Source of the DNA: an uncultured Thermoguttaceae bacterium
GTDB lineage: Bacteria; Planctomycetota; Planctomycetia; Pirellulales; Thermoguttaceae
NCBI GenBank assembly: GCA_937951625.1
Contig: CALFBP010000091.1
Coordinates: 1-37,958, forward strand
Reading direction: 5' to 3'
Length of the DNA: 37,958 nt
Positions within the stretch are counted from its first letter, which is position 1; the number at the start of each line of letters is the position of its first letter. The position numbers were made by a program, and so were the translations under genes. Below, one piece after another: positions 755 to 9,145 of the stretch. The notes below the pieces were generated by a model that was not told where the DNA came from, did not search any database, and worked only from the letters and a program-made list of their open reading frames with translations.

Positions 755-2806
755 ATGATTGCCCATCGATTCCTTTTGCTCGCCGTGCTGGCCATGATGC
801 TTAACACGGCCAGCGTGCAAGTGCAAGCGGCTGCGTCCGCTACGATCAAGGACGCCGAGTCGGCCACACATAGCTTTGAGGCCGCCTCCTATCAAGTGAG
901 AGACGTATACACGTTTCCCAGCTTCAAAGTGATCCAATTCGACCTGGGGGTGCTTTCTCACTATTCGTATCTTTTGGTAAGCGGGAAGGATGCCCTGGTC
1001 GTCGATCCTGGCCGCGATACGCAAACCTACCTGGAGGCGGCCAAGAAAGAGGGGGTGACCATTGTGGGCGTCTACCTGACCCACTCCCACGCCGACTTTG
1101 TTGCAGGCCACATGGAATTGGCCAAGGTCGCGCCGACTTACATCAGCGTCAAGACCGGGGCCAAATTCCCCCACAAAGCGGTCCGGGAGAACGACACGCT
1201 TGCCGTCGGCGACGCCGTGCTGAGGTTCATCGAGACGCCTGGCCACACGCCCGACGGGACCTGTGCCGTCGTCGCGACAAAGCAGCAGCCGGACCGGCCG
1301 CTGGCGATTTTCACGGGCGACACCCTCTTCATTGGCAGTGTGGGCCGACCGGACTTGTTGGGCGAGGGCATGGCCGCCTCGACGCTGGCCTCGATGATGT
1401 TCGATACCTGGCACGACAAACTCTCGAAGTTGCCCGACGATGTGAAGATCTTCCCAGCCCATGGGGCAGGCTCTTTGTGCGGTGCGCATTTGAGCGATGA
1501 GCCCACCTCCACCATCGGTGAGCAGCGCGTGGCCAACCCCTACTTCGCTCACAAGAGTCGGGGAGAGTTCGTGGCCGCCGTTTTGGAAGGGCTACCTGAA
1601 GCCCCTCAGTATTTCAAGCACAACGCACGGATCAACCATGATGGCCCGGAACTGGTGGATTGGCAGCCGGCCTCCTTGCCGATGATCCAGCCCACCGCCG
1701 AACTCACGGACCCGAATAAAGTGTATGTGGTCGATATCCGCGGGGCGGCGGAGTACTCGGCGGGCCACATCCCGAATTCAGTGAACATCGACCTGCGTGG
1801 CCGATTCGAGACCTGGGTCGGCATCATGGTGCCCTGGGATGCCCGGCTCGTCCTCTGCGGCCATGAAAAAGATCTGCCCGAGGCCCTCGCCCGGCTGCAC
1901 CGCGTCGGCTACAACCGGTCGGATAACCGCGTGGCGTGCCTGACCTTCGAGGTCTGGAAACAGGCTGGGCTTCCCGTGAAATCCAACGAGATGATCCCAC
2001 CGGCAGAACTTTACGCCCAAATGCAGTCCAAGGAGTCGCCCATCGTGGTGGATGTCCGTCAGCCCGCCGAATGGATGGCCGTGCGGATCGGGACGGTGGT
2101 CAACATCCCGCTCAGCGAATTGGCCCAAAAGGCGATCAAGCTGGATCGGCGACAGCCGGTGGTGGCTGTCTGCAACAGTGCCTATCGCTCCAACATGGCG
2201 GTCGGGATTTTGGAACGGGCAGGTTTTCAGCAGGTGGCCAGTCTGGCCGGGGGCAGCGAAGCGTGGATTCAGGCGGGTCTGCCAGTCCTGGAAGCGCGTA
2301 AGGAAGGCGGCAACGCGGCGCCGGTTCAACGCGAAATCCGCCTCGCGGAGAGGCTCTCGGCCGCGGAACTGAAGCGGTTGTTGATGGACCTACCCGGTAC
2401 CTTCCAAGTGGTCGACATCCGGCCCGCCGCACACTTCGCGGATTTCAACATCCCCGGCTCGCGCAACGTCGACATCGCCGACCTGTTGAACAACCCAGCG
2501 TATCTAACGGGGGCGGGCCCGTTGGTCATCGTCGATCGCGATGGAAGCGTGGCCATGATGGTCGGCGGCATCCTATCGCAAAAAACTCAACGTCCGGTGA
2601 AGGTGTTGTACGGCGGGCTGGCCGCCTATTGGTCGGAGGCCGGCCTGGCGGGAACGGCGACGCCGAGTGCCCCGCTTGCAACGGTCTCGGGCACAGGATC
2701 CCCGCCGGTGTCCGCGGCGGCGTCTGGCTCGACACCTTCTGCGCCGCCTGCCAAGCCGGTTGCTCCTTCGATTTCCAAACCCAAGAAGAAAAGTGCGGGG
2801 TGCTGA
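755..2806 (+). CDS. Exported MBL-fold persulfide dioxygenase-like protein with three rhodanese domains
   Basis: 683 residues. Residues 1-26 form a signal peptide. Residues 45-300 are a metallo-beta-lactamase domain of the persulfide dioxygenase (ETHE1/Blh-like) type: HSHAD at 110-114, H119, TPGH ending in H164, FTGD ending in D189 and PAH ending in H236 supply the metal ligands. Three rhodanese-like domains follow. Domain 1 (about 315-410) has C368 in an atypical loop (LCGHEK). Domain 2 (412-512) has a canonical loop with C473 (CNSAYRS). Domain 3 (533-630) has D594 where the cysteine should be. A Pro/Ala/Ser linker (635-675) leads to a lysine-rich end finishing in Cys. The family oxidises glutathione persulfide or transfers sulfane sulfur; an extracytoplasmic role in thiosulfate or polysulfide handling is inferred. 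GGAG lies 9 bases before the ATG. The stop is one base from the next start, so it is the first gene of an operon. Confidence 0.88.
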   Translation: MIAHRFLLLAVLAMMLNTASVQVQAAASATIKDAESATHSFEAASYQVRDVYTFPSFKVIQFDLGVLSHYSYLLVSGKDALVVDPGRDTQTYLEAAKKEGVTIVGVYLTHSHADFVAGHMELAKVAPTYISVKTGAKFPHKAVRENDTLAVGDAVLRFIETPGHTPDGTCAVVATKQQPDRPLAIFTGDTLFIGSVGRPDLLGEGMAASTLASMMFDTWHDKLSKLPDDVKIFPAHGAGSLCGAHLSDEPTSTIGEQRVANPYFAHKSRGEFVAAVLEGLPEAPQYFKHNARINHDGPELVDWQPASLPMIQPTAELTDPNKVYVVDIRGAAEYSAGHIPNSVNIDLRGRFETWVGIMVPWDARLVLCGHEKDLPEALARLHRVGYNRSDNRVACLTFEVWKQAGLPVKSNEMIPPAELYAQMQSKESPIVVDVRQPAEWMAVRIGTVVNIPLSELAQKAIKLDRRQPVVAVCNSAYRSNMAVGILERAGFQQVASLAGGSEAWIQAGLPVLEARKEGGNAAPVQREIRLAERLSAAELKRLLMDLPGTFQVVDIRPAAHFADFNIPGSRNVDIADLLNNPAYLTGAGPLVIVDRDGSVAMMVGGILSQKTQRPVKVLYGGLAAYWSEAGLAGTATPSAPLATVSGTGSPPVSAAASGSTPSAPPAKPVAPSISKPKKKSAGC

Positions 2807-2807
2807 C

Positions 2808-3362
2808 ATGAACGATACGAAGAACTCAGGAACGACGATCGACGGTGGGAAGCCCGCCGCGTATTGGAACCCTTATGCCGCGGGTGTGTTGCTGGGTGCG
2901 ACGTTGTTGGCGTCGTACCTGATCCTAGGAGCGGGCCTTGGAGCTTCGGCCGGGCCCGCCCGAATCGGGGCCTTTCTCGAATACTGCGTCTTGCCCCAGC
3001 ACGTCGCAAAAAGCGAGTACTTCGGCGCGTGGGTCGGATCGGCACAAGGCCTGCTTTCCTACTACCTGGTGTTCATGTTCGCCGGAACGTTTGTAGGAGG
3101 GCTTGTGTCGGCGGTCCTCGCCCGGAGGATCGATCCTGGCGTGGAACGAGGCAAGACCTTTGGCACTGCTCCCCGACTGACCCTCGCCCTGCTGGGTGGC
3201 GTGTTGGTCGGTTTCGCCAGTCGGTTAGCAAATGGTTGCACATCAGGCCAGGCCCTCAGCGGCGGCGCCATGCTCCTCAACGGCAGCCTGGTGTTCATGG
3301 TCTGCGTGTTCGTCGGTGGCTACGCCGCGGCCTGGTTTTTCAGGAGGCAATGGCATGATTGA
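2808..3362 (+). CDS. YeeE/YedE-type sulfur transporter, first half
   Basis: 184 residues with about four membrane segments (roughly 23-46, 83-106, 122-140, 158-180). The signature SRLANGCTSGQALSGGA, with C144 in an NGCTSG motif, matches the Sulf_transp (DUF395) repeat of YeeE/YedE proteins, membrane proteins that import thiosulfate or related sulfur compounds through conserved cysteines. C60 and C166 are other membrane-proximal cysteines. Classical YeeE proteins are about 350 residues with two such repeats; this one holds only one, and the second is in the next gene. The ATG at 2808 is preferred over an upstream in-frame start at 2667 because the longer version has an arginine-rich, non-homologous N-terminus lying inside the previous gene. 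It begins one base after the previous stop, and its last 8 bases overlap the next gene, so translational coupling is likely. Confidence 0.85.
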   Translation: MNDTKNSGTTIDGGKPAAYWNPYAAGVLLGATLLASYLILGAGLGASAGPARIGAFLEYCVLPQHVAKSEYFGAWVGSAQGLLSYYLVFMFAGTFVGGLVSAVLARRIDPGVERGKTFGTAPRLTLALLGGVLVGFASRLANGCTSGQALSGGAMLLNGSLVFMVCVFVGGYAAAWFFRRQWHD

Positions 3363-5409
3363 GACCTATTTCGGCGCAGAACAACTGGATTCGCCGCACG
3401 CCATGCTCGCCGCTCTGGTGATTGGTTTGGCGTTCGGGTTCGTCTTAGAGCGGGCCGGCTTCGGCAGCTCCCGCAAATTGGCAGGGATTTTCTACCTCAA
3501 AGACATGACGGTCTTGAAAGTCATGTTCACCGCCGTGATCACGGCCATGTTGGGTCTCTCCTACGCCTTTGCGTTAGGTTGGGTGGCGCCAGACCAGGTT
3601 TATGCCTTACCCACCGTGTATCCGGCCCAGGCGATTGGAGGCCTGCTATTCGGGCTGGGGTTCGTGATGAGCGGGTGGTGTCCAGGCACCAGCGCCGTCG
3701 GGGCTGCCAGCGGAAAGCTCGATGCCGGGGTGTTCTTGCTCGGCGCAGTGATCGGGGCCGTGGGATTCAACGAACTGTTCGGCGTGTTGCGAGCGATCGG
3801 CTTGGTGCCCCAAGCGGATCAAGGCGGCGTGCTGGGCGGGACGAGCGAAGCTCAAATCGCCTTCGGCTTGCCGCGAACGCTGTTCGCCTTGCTCTTCACC
3901 CTGATGGCCGTGGCAGCCTTTCACGCGGCGGAATGGATCGAGCGGCGGATGGCCGCAAGCGGATCGTACCCAGGCGGGCCGGTCCTCAAGGCCGTCAGTA
4001 TCGCCATGGTCGTCTTCGCCGTAGTGCTCTTCTTGCTGCCGGAATCCGCGCCGCTGGCCGATTCCGCAGCGGGGCCAGACATCGCAAATCTGTTGCAAAC
4101 GATCGAAGCTGCCCAAGACCACATCGAGCCTGAAGAGCTTGCCGATCGATTGATGGCGGGCGCGCAGGACGTGGTGGTCGTCGATGTACGTTCGCCGGCT
4201 GAATACGCGGCGTTCCACATCCGGGGCGCCATCCACGTGTCGTTGCCCGATTTGCCGAAGGCGCTCGAACCCCATAAGAACCGCGGTACGATCGTGCTGT
4301 ATTCCAACGGTATGACGCATCCGGCCCAGGCCCGCGACTTGCTCGCGTTGCTCGGCTTCCACAACGTGTATTTGCTGACCGACGGTCTGGCAGGTTTCGT
4401 GGAACGCTGCTTGAAGCCGGTCTCGCTCCGCGACGAACCGCTCAGCGAGCAACAAGCGGTCAAGGTCCGCGCTTGGAGGGCATTCTTCCTGGGCGGTGAT
4501 CCAGCTCGACCAGAGGTTGCTCGAAAGGCTGCCGAAAGTTCACCGACGCCGCAGGCCACGGCCAGGACCGGCGAACGCTTACCCGCTCTGGTCGATCCAT
4601 CATGGCTCGCCGCGCGGTTGAACGACCCAAACGTGAAGATTATCGACGTTCGCACCCAACCTCGCTACAGTACCAGTCACATCCCTAACGCGATATGCTT
4701 GAGCCCCGAAAGCGTGCGAGGGCCGATCGGCGGCGTACCTTCGATGTTGTTGCCTGCCGACCTCCTCGCCCGACTGCTGTCGAACATCGGTATTCGCCCC
4801 ACGGACGCGGTGGTACTGGTCTACGGGAACGATCCTGAAAATGGGGAGTTGGGGAACGGCCTTCGCGATGCAACGTTGCTCGGCATGGCCTTGGAGCGCT
4901 TGGGCCACCGCGACTGGGCGATTTTGGACGGCGGGTTCTGGCGTTGGGTCAGCGAGGGGCACCCGGTCACCGCCGCGCTGACCAAAATCGAACCGTCGGT
5001 CTATCCAGTTCCGCCCCAGCCCGACGATTTCACCGTCGATGCCCAGTACGTCGCGGCTCGACTCGAGGATCGCTCGGCGCTGATTCTCGACGCTCGGCCC
5101 GCGGACTATTTCCGCGGCGAAAAATCGGACGAGGCCCGGCCCGGCCACATCCCAGGCGCCTTGAATCGTCCGTTCAAGGCGGACTTGGGTCAAGGGGAGC
5201 GGTTCAACCCCCTCGACGAACTGGAAAAAGCTTACCAGACTCTGATTCCCTCGAAATCCAATCCGGTGATCGTCCATTGCCGCACGGGCCACCAGGCCTC
5301 GCAGACCTTCTTCCTGCTCCGCCGGGTGCTTGGCTACACGCAGGTCAAGTGGTACGACGGGGGCTGGGCGGAATGGGCCGCGCGGTTTGATCTGCCCGCC
5401 GAAAAATAA
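3355..5409 (+). CDS. YeeE/YedE second half fused to three rhodanese domains
   Basis: 684 residues. Residues 15-230 are a membrane domain with about six hydrophobic segments and the YeeE/YedE signature SGWCPGTSAVGAASGK (C109). Residues 255-355 are rhodanese domain 1, with Ser317 where the catalytic cysteine should be (LYSNGM). Residues 408-540 resemble the N-terminal, inactive half of a thiosulfate sulfurtransferase (DVRTQPRYSTSHIPNA), with no cysteine in the loop. Residues 558-680 are the C-terminal half with catalytic C642 in HCRTGHQAS. The C-terminal pair thus looks like one functional tandem sulfurtransferase, tethered to a channel half. The start at 3355 (AGGAGGC upstream) removes an implausible 41-residue extension beginning at 3232. 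The gene overlaps the previous one by 8 bases. The likely role is to take sulfane sulfur from thiosulfate at the membrane; which side the rhodaneses face is not decidable from the sequence alone. Confidence 0.87.
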   Translation: MIETYFGAEQLDSPHAMLAALVIGLAFGFVLERAGFGSSRKLAGIFYLKDMTVLKVMFTAVITAMLGLSYAFALGWVAPDQVYALPTVYPAQAIGGLLFGLGFVMSGWCPGTSAVGAASGKLDAGVFLLGAVIGAVGFNELFGVLRAIGLVPQADQGGVLGGTSEAQIAFGLPRTLFALLFTLMAVAAFHAAEWIERRMAASGSYPGGPVLKAVSIAMVVFAVVLFLLPESAPLADSAAGPDIANLLQTIEAAQDHIEPEELADRLMAGAQDVVVVDVRSPAEYAAFHIRGAIHVSLPDLPKALEPHKNRGTIVLYSNGMTHPAQARDLLALLGFHNVYLLTDGLAGFVERCLKPVSLRDEPLSEQQAVKVRAWRAFFLGGDPARPEVARKAAESSPTPQATARTGERLPALVDPSWLAARLNDPNVKIIDVRTQPRYSTSHIPNAICLSPESVRGPIGGVPSMLLPADLLARLLSNIGIRPTDAVVLVYGNDPENGELGNGLRDATLLGMALERLGHRDWAILDGGFWRWVSEGHPVTAALTKIEPSVYPVPPQPDDFTVDAQYVAARLEDRSALILDARPADYFRGEKSDEARPGHIPGALNRPFKADLGQGERFNPLDELEKAYQTLIPSKSNPVIVHCRTGHQASQTFFLLRRVLGYTQVKWYDGGWAEWAARFDLPAEK

Positions 5410-6415: not shown

Positions 6416-7630
6416 ATGCGCAAGATTGCCGTCGCCTTGAGTTGCGGATTGCTTTTGGCATTGGGGCTTCCGACGCCATGGGTCGCGAAGGCGGAAGAGC
6501 CGTCTGGTCGGGCCTTCAACGGACTCGATCTCCACTTGGGCAATTTGTATCGGCTCTCGAATGCCCAGACGCGAAGCATCAGTCCGGAGAACTTCACGGG
6601 CGAGAAGGGCAAGGCCGCGATGGCCACCGAGGGGACGGGCAAACATGCCGCCCGAGACTTGGGCCAAGGGTGGAAAGTTTCGCCCTCGGTTCGCATTAAG
6701 GCGAAATCGACTTTCACGTTGGCTGAGATCGTCGGCCCCGGCGCGATCCAGCAAATCTGGATGACCCCCGCCCCCATCGACCGAACCCGATTCTTCATCT
6801 TGCGGTTCTACTGGGATGATGAGGATGAACCGTCGATCGAGGTTCCCATGGGCGATTTCTTCGCCTGCGGCTGGGGAAAGTATGCCCAGATCAACTCGCT
6901 GGCCGTCTGCGTCAATCCAGGCAGCGCGTTCAATTGCTACTGGAACATGCCGTTCCGAAAAAAGGCGAAGGTCACCATGGAGAACCTGGACGACCGGGAC
7001 ATGGTGCTCTACTACCAGATCAACTACACGTTGACCGACGTGCCGGACGACGCGGCCTACCTGCACGCCCAATTCCGCCGCGTCCACAAGCTGCCAGCGC
7101 GGACTGTGTACACCATCTTGGACGGGGTGAGAGGCCGCGGTCATTACGTGGGCACCTACATGGCCTGGGAAGTCCGCAGTCCTGGCTGGTGGGGTGAAGG
7201 GGAAATCAAGTTCTACCTGGACGGCGACCAAGAGTTCCCCACCATCGCCGGCACTGGTACCGAGGACTATTTCTGCGGCTCGTACAACTTCGAGAACCGC
7301 GAGACCCGGTTGTATCAGACGTTTTCCACGCCCTACACGGGCCTGGCGCAGGTGCTGCCGCCCGATGTCGCCTACCTGCCTGGCCAGCGATTCGGACTCT
7401 ATCGCTGGCACATCCCCGACCCCATTCGCTTCCAACAAGACCTGAAAGTGACCATCCAGGCCCTGGGGTGGTATCAGGATGGCTCGGGACGCTATTTGCC
7501 GCTGGAAGACGACATCGCCTCGGTGGCCTTCTGGTATCAGACCGAACCGCACGCCAAATTCCCGAAACTACCGGATAAGGACCAATTGGCGATCGAACCG
7601 TTGAAGGTCGTCCAACCCGAAAAGAAATAA
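6416..7630 (+). CDS. DUF2961 / GH172-family exported glycoside hydrolase-like protein
   Basis: 404 residues. Residues 1-26 are a signal peptide ending AKA. The rest is a single DUF2961 domain with its hallmarks: GEGEIKFYLDGD near 260-271, GTGTEDYFCGSY at 279-290, and aromatic-rich jelly-roll strands (IQQIWMT, FYWDDED, YWNMPF). DUF2961 is the founding family of GH172, whose characterised members act on alpha-D-arabinofuranosides or difructose dianhydrides; the substrate here is unknown. The acidic residues in the EGE and GTEDY motifs are plausible catalytic residues (inference from conservation). AAGGAG at 6405-6410 lies five bases before the ATG, so the start is well supported. A hairpin follows 12 bases after the stop. 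Confidence 0.88.
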   Translation: MRKIAVALSCGLLLALGLPTPWVAKAEEPSGRAFNGLDLHLGNLYRLSNAQTRSISPENFTGEKGKAAMATEGTGKHAARDLGQGWKVSPSVRIKAKSTFTLAEIVGPGAIQQIWMTPAPIDRTRFFILRFYWDDEDEPSIEVPMGDFFACGWGKYAQINSLAVCVNPGSAFNCYWNMPFRKKAKVTMENLDDRDMVLYYQINYTLTDVPDDAAYLHAQFRRVHKLPARTVYTILDGVRGRGHYVGTYMAWEVRSPGWWGEGEIKFYLDGDQEFPTIAGTGTEDYFCGSYNFENRETRLYQTFSTPYTGLAQVLPPDVAYLPGQRFGLYRWHIPDPIRFQQDLKVTIQALGWYQDGSGRYLPLEDDIASVAFWYQTEPHAKFPKLPDKDQLAIEPLKVVQPEKK

Positions 7631-7849: not shown

Positions 7850-7939
7850 CAATCCGAGGGGGCTGGCCGAAGATACGTGCGCCGCTAAATTCGCAGGGCA
7901 AACGGTTGCCTTGGATGGCTTTTGACAAGGAACATGCTC

Positions 7940-9145
7940 ATGACCCCACGCGAGCGCGTCCTGGCAACTCTGAACCGCCAGAAGGTTGATTGCATTCCCT
8001 TCGACATCGGCGGTACGGATTGTACCAGCGTCCACGTCATTCCGTATCACAAACTGCGTCAGCGGTTGGGTCTGGGCAACGGGCCCATCCGCGCCGGCTG
8101 CTTGATTCAACTAGTGGCGCAGACCGATCGGCCGGTCATGGACGCCTTGGGCACGGACGTCGAGGCCCTCTGGTTCGGCTCCCAGCGGACGAAACTTTGG
8201 AAGACCCCCTTCGGCGTCGAATTGATCATTCCCGAACGGTTCGACGTGGAGGACTTGCCCGACGGCTCGTCCGTGGTGCGCAATCCGCAGGGGGTGATTT
8301 ACGCCCGTCGGGCGGCCGACGCCTATTACCACGACCCAGTTGGCAATCCGCTGGCTAGCGTGACGTCGCCCGCTGAACTGGACAAATACGACGCCCTCTT
8401 CGAGCGCTGGGACTTCTCCTACGTCTACGACGAGCCCATGGAAGAGCTGGCGGCCCGGGCCAAGATGCAATATCAATCCACGGATCGAGCGGTGGTGACA
8501 TTGTGGCGGATGCACTACCTTCAGTCCGGGATGCTGATGCGGGGCTACGAGCAATTCCTCGTCGATTTGATGACCAACAAGGACCTTGCCCACGCGCTGC
8601 TCAGCAAGCTGCATGAGGCTTACCTGCGGCGGATCGAGATGTTTCTCCAGGCCTTCGGCCCTTGGTTCGACATTATTTTTCTCACCGACGACCTCGGCAC
8701 GCAGCAAACGGGCATGATCTCGACGGCCCTCTACCGCGAGATGATCTACCCTTACATTTCCGAGGCGGTCGCAAAGATGAAGTCGGCCGGCAAGAAGGTC
8801 GTGATGCACTCCTGCGGGGCGGTTTCCGCATTCGTGCCGTTCATGATCGAAATGGGGATCGACGCCCTCAATCCCGTGCAAGTCAGCGCCGCGGGAATGA
8901 ACCCGGCGGAGCTGGTGCGTCAATACGGCAAAGATATCGCGTTCTGGGGCGGAGGCTGCGACACGCAACATGCCCTGAACGCCGCGGACCCGGAGGTGGT
9001 GCGGGCCGACGTCCGCCGCCGTCTCCGAGAGTTCGGTCCCCACGCCCACTTGGTGTTCACCCAGGTCCATAACATTCAGTACGACGTCCCGCCCGAAAAC
9101 ATTCTCGCCATGCGGGACGAGTTCTTCCGGCAGACACGGTCGTGA
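7940..9145 (+). CDS. Uroporphyrinogen decarboxylase-like (MtaA/CmuA-type) protein
   Basis: 401 residues. MTPRERVLATLN at the N-terminus is the usual opening of the UroD superfamily. H290-S-C292-G and C340 (GGGCDTQH) form the His-Cys...Cys set that binds zinc in the methylcobamide:thiol methyltransferases (MtaA/MtbA type). True HemE proteins lack this set, so a heme role is unlikely. By family knowledge it would move a methyl group from a corrinoid or act in demethylation. No corrinoid protein gene lies nearby, so the partner is unknown; many planctomycete and Verrucomicrobia homologues sit in sugar-degradation loci. The ATG at 7940 is chosen because AAGGA lies 8 bases upstream; the ATG at 7934 and TTG at 7922 are too close to or inside that site. 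Confidence 0.8.
   Translation: MTPRERVLATLNRQKVDCIPFDIGGTDCTSVHVIPYHKLRQRLGLGNGPIRAGCLIQLVAQTDRPVMDALGTDVEALWFGSQRTKLWKTPFGVELIIPERFDVEDLPDGSSVVRNPQGVIYARRAADAYYHDPVGNPLASVTSPAELDKYDALFERWDFSYVYDEPMEELAARAKMQYQSTDRAVVTLWRMHYLQSGMLMRGYEQFLVDLMTNKDLAHALLSKLHEAYLRRIEMFLQAFGPWFDIIFLTDDLGTQQTGMISTALYREMIYPYISEAVAKMKSAGKKVVMHSCGAVSAFVPFMIEMGIDALNPVQVSAAGMNPAELVRQYGKDIAFWGGGCDTQHALNAADPEVVRADVRRRLREFGPHAHLVFTQVHNIQYDVPPENILAMRDEFFRQTRS

Follow-up and report, generated by a model that had tools for sequence, protein, structure and literature searches.

Organisation of the locus

The DNA analysed here (the window) is the whole of contig CALFBP010000091.1 (C91 in our numbering), 37,958 nucleotides of a 4.59 Mb assembly from an uncultured Thermoguttaceae bacterium. 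Near its start lie three closely packed genes on the forward strand, here called genes 1, 2 and 3 (Table 1), with a 1-base gap between the first two and an 8-base overlap between the second and third. Pfam models recognised Lactamase_B and three Rhodanese stretches in gene 1, positions 175–309 of the Sulf_transp profile (PF04143) in gene 2, and positions 2–158 of the same profile followed by three Rhodanese stretches in gene 3, all above the curated cut-offs. An earlier interpretation made without database searches (the sequence-only reading) had described an exported metallo-beta-lactamase (MBL) protein with three rhodaneses, a YeeE half, and a second YeeE half fused to three further rhodaneses; this anatomy, with its coordinates, gap and overlap, was borne out. 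The most striking feature of the locus, a C-terminal cysteine arm on gene 1, was absent from that reading, as was its counterpart in a related sister system.

Table 1. Features of the three-gene locus in the window (RHD, rhodanese domain; aa, amino acids).
Feature	Position	Strand	Remarks
Gene 1, predicted exported type III persulfide-dioxygenase-like protein: signal peptide, MBL, three rhodanese folds, linker, SAGC tail	755..2806	+	683 aa
Signal peptide region, residues about 1–24	755..826	+	by eye; helix 2–28 in model
MBL domain (persulfide dioxygenase-type), residues 56–305; THSHADF motif	920..1669	+	Fe-triad positions His110, His164, Asp189
RHD1 of gene 1, pseudo-rhodanese	1670..1969	+	loop Cys in 30/74 homologues
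RHD2 of gene 1, CNSAYRS loop; Cys473 codon 2171–2173	1970..2290	+	Cys in 74/74
RHD3 of gene 1, pseudo-rhodanese, DRDG loop	2330..2644	+	Asp594 in 72/74
Flexible Ala/Pro/Ser linker, KKKS, terminal AGC; Cys683 codon 2801–2803	2645..2803	+	AGC in 74/74
Gene 2, YeeE half, PmpA-like, C-terminal half by Pfam; Cys144 codon 3237–3239 in GCTSG	2808..3362	+	184 aa
Gene 3, YeeE half (PmpB-like, N-terminal half by Pfam) and three rhodanese folds	3355..5409	+	684 aa
Gene 3 YeeE half, with one additional helix at its end; Cys109 codon 3679–3681 in WCPGT	3355..4050	+	PF04143, alignment, model
RHD1 of gene 3, pseudo-rhodanese, Ser317 loop	4102..4419	+	Ser317 invariant in 49/49 aligned
RHD2–RHD3 of gene 3, tandem TST/MST-like; loop CRTGHQAS, Cys642 codon 5278–5280	4576..5406	+	fold match 3hwi

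A conserved cysteine arm closes gene 1

The gene 1 product ends in KKKSAGC behind a disordered linker; in the predicted model most of residues 631–683 (631–664, 668–673 and 679–683) have a predicted local distance difference test score (pLDDT) below 50. Homologues were collected as open reading frames (ORFs) holding both the MBL domain and the third rhodanese, which gave 74 ORFs from 71 distinct loci; three duplicates (L116, L133 and L168, of L067, L069 and L068, respectively) remain inside the counts of 74 and, for gene 3, of 62. Every one of the 74 closes with AGC (70 SAGC, 2 PAGC, 1 NAGC and 1 DAGC). The linker ahead of this tip is largely unconserved in the consensus, in which mean column identity is 57%, and the window protein has six cysteines, of which C242, C473 and C683 alone are invariant. 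Among the remaining 594 ORFs of 150 aa or more at these loci, a mechanically called set in which some are not genes, none closes with AGC and 25 have a cysteine within their final three residues; a chance origin of the tail was set aside on the AGC background. None of the 62 ORFs with the last rhodanese of gene 3 (fragments and duplicates included) had a cysteine in the last five residues, and none of 12 MBL homologues with two rhodaneses ended in AGC. DNA patterns were of no help in the window's own genome: a GGCG-stop pattern gave 11 matches against 20 in the reversed control and is no marker, and the SAGC pattern was uninformative, the serine codon of the window being AGT, which lies outside it.

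Gene 1 is related to CstB but predicted to be exported

Residues 65–511 of gene 1 align to the MBL-rhodanese structure 3tp9 (E 2.1e-67) and residues 65–498 to S. aureus 3r2u (E 3.3e-51), and Foldseek gave TMt values of 0.86 and 0.85 for the same two structures, at 32% and 30% identity. We take 3r2u to be CstB; the entry itself reads metallo-beta-lactamase from S. aureus COL. The presumed iron-ligand positions His110, His164 and Asp189 are each occupied as expected in 73 of the 74 homologues, with one gap (a count of residues only), and the same holds for Phe115, which replaces the third histidine of the motif. PMC6060420 describes the ligand roles in such a 2-His-1-Asp mononuclear Fe site and gives Phe or Tyr in place of the third histidine as a mark of type III dioxygenases. 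The rhodaneses follow the CstB-type order of a pseudo-rhodanese and then an active-type one, the loop cysteine being present in RHD1 of 30 homologues, the window protein among them, and in RHD2 of all 74; Cys473 in RHD2 is thus the only catalytic cysteine kept among the three rhodaneses of gene 1. The alignments, iron-site residues and Phe115 agree on the persulfide-dioxygenase type that the sequence-only reading had given the MBL domain. The NCBIfam model for Blh, a bifunctional sulfur transferase/dioxygenase (NF040641), scored 23.6 bits, with a cut-off of 625 bits.

By eye, gene 1 opens with a Sec-like signal peptide. Of the distinct homologues, 68 are complete at the 5′ end, and in these the hydrophobic 12-residue stretch upstream of the MBL domain reached a mean hydropathy of at least 2.0 in 64 and at least 1.7 in 67, the lowest value being 1.675. 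No signal-peptide-like stretch was seen in the 12 relatives with two rhodaneses, six of which were too short upstream to score; the other six reached at most 1.43. Because of its hydrophobic N-terminus and AGC tail, gene 1 is classed here as an exported variant of the CstB-type (type III) persulfide dioxygenases, with predicted activity, and not as CstB itself, which is presumably a cytoplasmic enzyme without a tail.

Two neighbourhoods of gene 1 may be recorded here. In Desulfoferrobacter suflitae (L132:9516–10931) a leaderless MBL protein with two rhodaneses adjoins the exported armed system. At another locus, from the cultured Neorhodopirellula pilleata (L117:3914–4801), an AhpC-type peroxiredoxin lies immediately 5′ of gene 1; its sequence cluster occurs in five more gene 1 loci (L067, L111, L114, L118 and L131), with variable adjacency.

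Genes 2 and 3 encode two YeeE halves

The reading of genes 2 and 3 as two YeeE halves was upheld, since they match the two halves of one family (PF04143), as is described for PmpA/PmpB in PMC11582611. That source places the conserved cysteines of YeeE at positions 293 and 91 of the S. thermophila protein, with one each in PmpA and PmpB. Cys144 of gene 2 is invariant across 23 sequences and Cys109 of gene 3 across 49. A sequence search of the PDB with the gene 3 half found S. thermophila YeeE (8j4c) at E 0.012, with Cys109 opposite the cysteine near residue 91, and the same search with gene 2 returned one weak, irrelevant match only. Cys144 would therefore correspond to position 293 by way of the profile halves rather than by direct alignment. 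The NCBIfam models for the thiosulfate transporter TsuA order the two halves as Pfam does; the cut-offs of NF052577 (400 bits) and NF041049 (645 bits) were not reached by gene 2 (24.4 and 20.9 bits), nor that of NF052577 by gene 3 (29.1 bits), half-size proteins hardly being able to reach cut-offs set for full-length ones. The fold comparison of gene 3 showed no YeeE among the 50 matches listed, but as one domain fills that list it is silent on YeeE. Together, the two genes probably pair as one YeeE-like pore.

The rhodaneses of gene 3 probably lie outside the membrane

Residues 406–684 of gene 3 superpose on 3hwi (Z 32.4, root-mean-square deviation (rmsd) 2.1, 261 residues aligned), which identifies RHD2 and RHD3 as a pair of the thiosulfate/mercaptopyruvate sulfurtransferase (TST/MST) type. 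Cys642 of RHD3 is invariant in 49 sequences, and its CRTGHQ motif is found in 57 of the 62 ORFs with this last rhodanese; the RHD2 loop has no cysteine. Hence the six rhodaneses that the sequence-only reading had counted in the locus stand as folds but not as catalysts, a conserved catalytic cysteine being present only in RHD2 of gene 1 and RHD3 of gene 3.

Averaged hydropathy of gene 3 indicated six helices, with conserved Arg/Lys at 33–55, 121, 197–199 and 212 on one side. Applied to these residues, the positive-inside rule would put both ends of the membrane part outside, and with them the rhodaneses. This topology fits the cytoplasm-facing residues 28 and 98 that PMC11073785 reports for S. 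thermophila YeeE. In six loci (L070–L074 and L174) the YeeE half and the gene 3-type rhodaneses are in separate ORFs, for instance at L070:5005–6143, L071:5883–7015 and L074:6209–7296 in distant gene 1 systems, and by eye the separate rhodanese ORFs follow a hydrophobic stretch, the ORF of L174 comprising the first rhodanese only. The charge pattern and these separate ORFs both point to the sulfane-sulfur type domains lying outside the membrane, as had been proposed.

Co-location and spread of the three genes

A lack of co-location elsewhere, named by the sequence-only reading as one finding that would refute it, did not occur. In a sample of 294 genomes of the planctomycete phylum, ten gene 1 matches, that of the window's own genome among them, carried all three rhodaneses (weaker matches were only partly checked), and gene 2 adjoined gene 1 in all ten, which speaks against a chance arrangement. 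Gene 2 was on the same strand in each of the 71 distinct gene 1 loci, 61 of which had been retrieved through gene 2. The distance between the genes, taken up to the point where the model match begins, was no more than 150 bases in 68 of these loci and within 1 kb in the other three; an in-frame start permitting the 8-base overlap was available in 61 of 71, an upper bound as M, V and L were all allowed as starts.

A second sample, 247 genomes from the phylum of the Desulforhabdus genome described below (L163), was searched with the carrier alone. Five genomes encode the carrier, each with an AGC end, and in four of them genes 2 and 3 come after it; leaving aside the already known L163 and L156, the tail was seen in three of three loci and the neighbourhood in two of three. 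In the exception, genome G399, gene 1 stands alone on contig C105 (L194), and gene 2 with the other YeeE half lies on C37 (L196), behind what by eye is a molybdoenzyme–iron-sulfur (FeS)–NrfD-like set.

A scan of contigs with the gene 2 alignment found at least 588 stretches and at least 584 relatives. Of the best 80, which were kept, 64 have gene 1, three a standalone carrier (one of them broken), one is truncated and 12 are of a sister type without gene 1. The closest gene 2 relatives among the named records listed were from Planctomycetaceae (74%) and Pirellulales (73%). Loci with gene 1 or a carrier are labelled Planctomycetota, Desulfobacterota-type, Verrucomicrobia, Lentisphaerae, Kiritimatiellae, Omnitrophota, Auribacterota, Hydrogenedentota, Riflebacteria, Wallbacteria, Myxococcota, Methylomirabilis and Accumulibacter, and the sister loci include Gemmatimonadota, Ignavibacteria, Acidobacteria, Holophagales, Fimbriimonas and a deltaproteobacterium; most of these labels come from metagenome-assembled genomes, whose bins can be mislabelled. 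Downstream of the three genes the window encodes a DUF2961 protein (6416–7630) and a uroporphyrinogen-decarboxylase-family protein (7922–9145), with no visible link to sulfur.

The arm also occurs without the dioxygenase

In Candidatus Accumulibacter (L152) and Desulforhabdus sp. TSK (L163) a small ORF lies directly 5′ of genes 2 and 3 and consists of a signal peptide (by eye), a pseudo-rhodanese, a linker and a terminal SAGC; no gene 1-type MBL was found within either locus. An armed pseudo-rhodanese can therefore exist without the dioxygenase. A selenocysteine codon that might have hidden an MBL part was set aside, as each small ORF has, by eye, a signal peptide of its own, and an MBL-like ORF on the opposite strand of L152 (2484–3527) was rejected as the missing domain, being RNase-Z-like by eye and without a match to the MBL model. 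The Pfam scan of gene 1 and of these two carriers found no SoxY (PF13501); Rhodanese was matched instead. A third standalone carrier, in Accumulibacter (L162:2461–4045), was set aside, its gene being broken and its tail lost; by eye it stands beside a transposase-like ORF, and the gene 3 region of that locus is also broken into several ORFs.

The gene 2 clade is also found without gene 1, including in the window's own genome (contig C14, locus L005). This sister system has a degenerate rhodanese that is either joined to a YeeE half or comes after it. Twenty-seven such loci remained once L166, in which gene 1 lies beyond the contig start, had been removed, and two more (L081 and L086) were left out of the tail count as they are cut at contig ends. 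All 25 complete ends read GGCG, GGCGG, GGGC, GGCS, EGC or MGC, and the proportion is 24 of 24 without L085, for which the next ORF downstream was taken, partly on account of its tail; GGCG closes many of these proteins and GGCGG that of L080. The aligned catalytic loop is devoid of cysteine in all 25, though the alignment is uncertain for degenerate copies; 18 of the 25 have no cysteine in the last 215 residues other than that of the tail. The best rhodanese model was RHD1 of gene 3 in 20 of the 25 and RHD3 of gene 1 in one (L176), so that the arm sits on different rhodaneses in the two systems.

The neighbours of the sister system also differ from those of gene 1. A molybdoenzyme cluster was found in 12 of the 27 sister loci, as opposed to one (L174) of 74 distinct gene 1 or carrier loci, and a multihaem or cytochrome b cluster in nine, as opposed to none of the 74. 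With L084 having both kinds, 20 of the 27 have at least one; L179 has FeS and NrfD genes at the contig end. The molybdoenzyme of L077 aligned with the Thermus 'thiosulfate reductase' structure 2vpw (E 9.3e-221), which we take to be the polysulfide reductase PsrABC, and the NrfD-type subunit at a sister locus is PF03916. In the window's own genome the sister locus (L005:4331–9553, minus strand) comprises an octahaem cytochrome, a cytochrome b561-like ORF and two YeeE halves, the second of which carries a degenerate rhodanese ending in GGGCG; the cytochrome scored 606 bits against TIGR04315 (tetrathionate-reductase-family octahaem), for which the cut-off is 375.

A possible sulfur relay and its alternatives

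We hold with moderate confidence that the locus encodes an extracytoplasmic sulfane-sulfur relay serving a split YeeE channel through the C-terminal cysteine arm. In this relay the gene 3 rhodaneses would face outwards, and genes 2 and 3 would form one YeeE-like pore in which Cys144 and Cys109 correspond to residues 293 and 91 of the S. thermophila protein. Sulfane sulfur would be taken off thiosulfate or polysulfide by the TST-like rhodaneses of gene 3 and passed, as a persulfide, to Cys683 at the arm tip of gene 1. The arm could then swing among Cys642, Cys473, the MBL iron site and the pore mouth, surplus persulfide being oxidised with O2 at the iron site and the remainder delivered at the pore mouth for import. 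The sister loci carry their arm on or after the YeeE half, often next to a PsrA-like molybdoenzyme or an octahaem cytochrome rather than a dioxygenase. Such an arm would work as the C-terminal GGCGG arm of SoxY does, but on a catalytically dead rhodanese fold.

Several observations weigh against this proposal. With regard to the enzyme, a dioxygenase is odd in the groups of L132, L159 and L164, whose physiology we take to be that of strict anaerobes. In eight of the 74 homologues His112 is replaced by Asn, and an Ala variant at the counterpart of this residue in the A. caldus persulfide dioxygenase is reported to retain 6.6% activity. As to the arm, the homologues are related by descent (42–73% identity to the window protein for the 58 aligned), and therefore the weight lies on the contrast between the invariant tip and the variable linker; the conserved cysteine may serve another purpose than the sulfur carriage that we infer from the sequences, and the arm of the window protein ends in AGC rather than GGCGG. 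No match to either rhodanese model was obtained for four sister proteins (L077, L078, L085 and L180), whose loop alignment is unsure, Pfam giving a rhodanese match in L180 and none in L085. As to the channel, two selenium YedE models align the halves in reverse, below their cut-offs; an internally repeated family permits this, and the assignment of which half is which is therefore uncertain. The YeeE half of gene 3 is poorly modelled (10-residue blocks with pLDDT 44–92; predicted template modelling score (pTM) of the whole model 0.48), Arg174 (0.61 Arg/Lys) falls on the presumed outer side, contrary to the charge rule, and import is a presumed direction of transport. Finally, 61 of the 71 loci were retrieved through gene 2, and in G399 genes 1 and 2 are on different contigs, where the arm and the channel may act in trans.

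An unlikely but real alternative is detoxification of sulfide or persulfide outside the cell, with the split YeeE releasing or exchanging sulfur, the exported CstB-like enzyme making sulfite or thiosulfate from persulfide, and the tail merely channelling substrate within gene 1. The nearest relatives of gene 1, by sequence and by Foldseek, are of the CstB type (3tp9 and 3r2u), an exported AhpC-type peroxiredoxin stands directly 5′ of gene 1 in L117, and yeeE-yedE-pdo2 operons are described as serving sulfur detoxification in PMC7315123. Set against this, the carriers of L152 and L163 retain the tail without the gene 1-type MBL, the neighbours of the sister system are often respiratory enzymes, and PMC11582611 and PMC11073785 describe relatives of YeeE as importers. 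Given the loci with a separate carrier and the sister system, the dioxygenase is unlikely to be the heart of the system.

It is rather less probable again that the cysteine at the end of the arm serves anchoring, sorting, metal binding or disulfide formation and does not carry sulfur. Basic residues precede the cysteine in most tails, as would suit an attachment signal, but an anchor would be needless where sister tails are already fused to the membrane half (L005, L075 and L080), and the loop cysteine is gone in all 25 sister proteins while the tail cysteine persists. The chain proposed by the sequence-only reading, with import of thiosulfate or polysulfide, sulfur passed along active rhodaneses and oxidation by the MBL domain, is very improbable if the tail is to be incidental to it: all the domains are present, among them a convincing TST-like pair in gene 3, but four of the six rhodaneses are without a conserved catalytic cysteine, and the tail is invariant against a mean column identity of 57%.

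Relation to known systems

Gene 1 varies the CstB kind and genes 2 and 3 the PmpAB kind, and a dioxygenase together with YeeE halves in one operon is already known. CstB of S. aureus and the Alicyclobacillus protein 3tp9 share with residues 65–511 of gene 1 the MBL domain, the pseudo-rhodanese, the active rhodanese and the type III Phe; gene 1 adds the signal peptide, a third degenerate rhodanese, the long linker, the AGC tail and the split-YeeE neighbour. With PmpA/PmpB of Serratia the locus has in common two YeeE half proteins with one conserved cysteine each, and with yeeE-yedE-pdo2 of Acinetobacter (PMC7315123) a persulfide dioxygenase in one operon with YeeE halves. It differs from both in the additional helix and the three rhodaneses of gene 3 and in a dioxygenase that is predicted to be exported and is armed.

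The GGCGG cysteine of SoxY is reported to bind sulfur substrates (PMC6067878) and to ride on a swinging arm (PMC5336275), which makes SoxYZ a functional parallel in having an extracytoplasmic carrier with a C-terminal Gly-Cys arm; gene 1 differs in its rhodanese fold, its lack of a SoxY match and its AGC tail. A SoxY search of the window's own genome gave no match, a search made without a positive control and in which no control genome matched either. EanB and YnjE have three rhodanese folds in a row as gene 3 does, but the set in gene 3 is fused to a YeeE half, and the EanB alignments (rmsd >22) indicate a domain placement that is different or not predicted. The ped cluster associated with pyrroloquinoline quinone (PQQ) combines similar part types (a SoxYZ-like carrier, the MBL protein SoxH and a rhodanese), and in Hyphomicrobium pmpAB lies near Sox(YZ) and SoxH, so that a split YeeE is also among the parts; these sets have another carrier fold and a context of PQQ alcohol oxidation. 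An armed rhodanese beside a split YeeE was not described in the titles and abstract openings of the open-access literature searched. The remark of the sequence-only reading that no characterised system has this architecture needs qualifying, with CstB and the yeeE-yedE-pdo2 operons known.

More tentatively, the arm could define a new class of covalent sulfur carrier, in which a dead rhodanese fold with a long flexible arm and a single Gly-Cys serves as the dedicated extracytoplasmic shuttle of a split YeeE and is coupled interchangeably to a dioxygenase, to Psr-type molybdoenzymes or to octahaem cytochromes. The SoxT paper (PMC11582611) says in its introduction that sulfane sulfur enters the cytoplasm 'by unknown means', and puts forward its transfer from SoxYZ to SoxT as a proposal. 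A conserved armed carrier beside YeeE-type channels offers a concrete thiol for how outside sulfur reaches such channels; it also suggests that a rhodanese fold, once dead, can be retained as a carrier. The record labels suggest that a sulfur system so far unrecognised is present in many planctomycete genomes and in many of PVC or Desulfobacterota type. If the proposal is true, the carrier class would span ten or more phylum-level labels and provide a second solution, beside SoxYZ, for covalent sulfur carriage outside the membrane, with a donor for YeeE-type import and thus an undescribed way of passing sulfur to a transporter.

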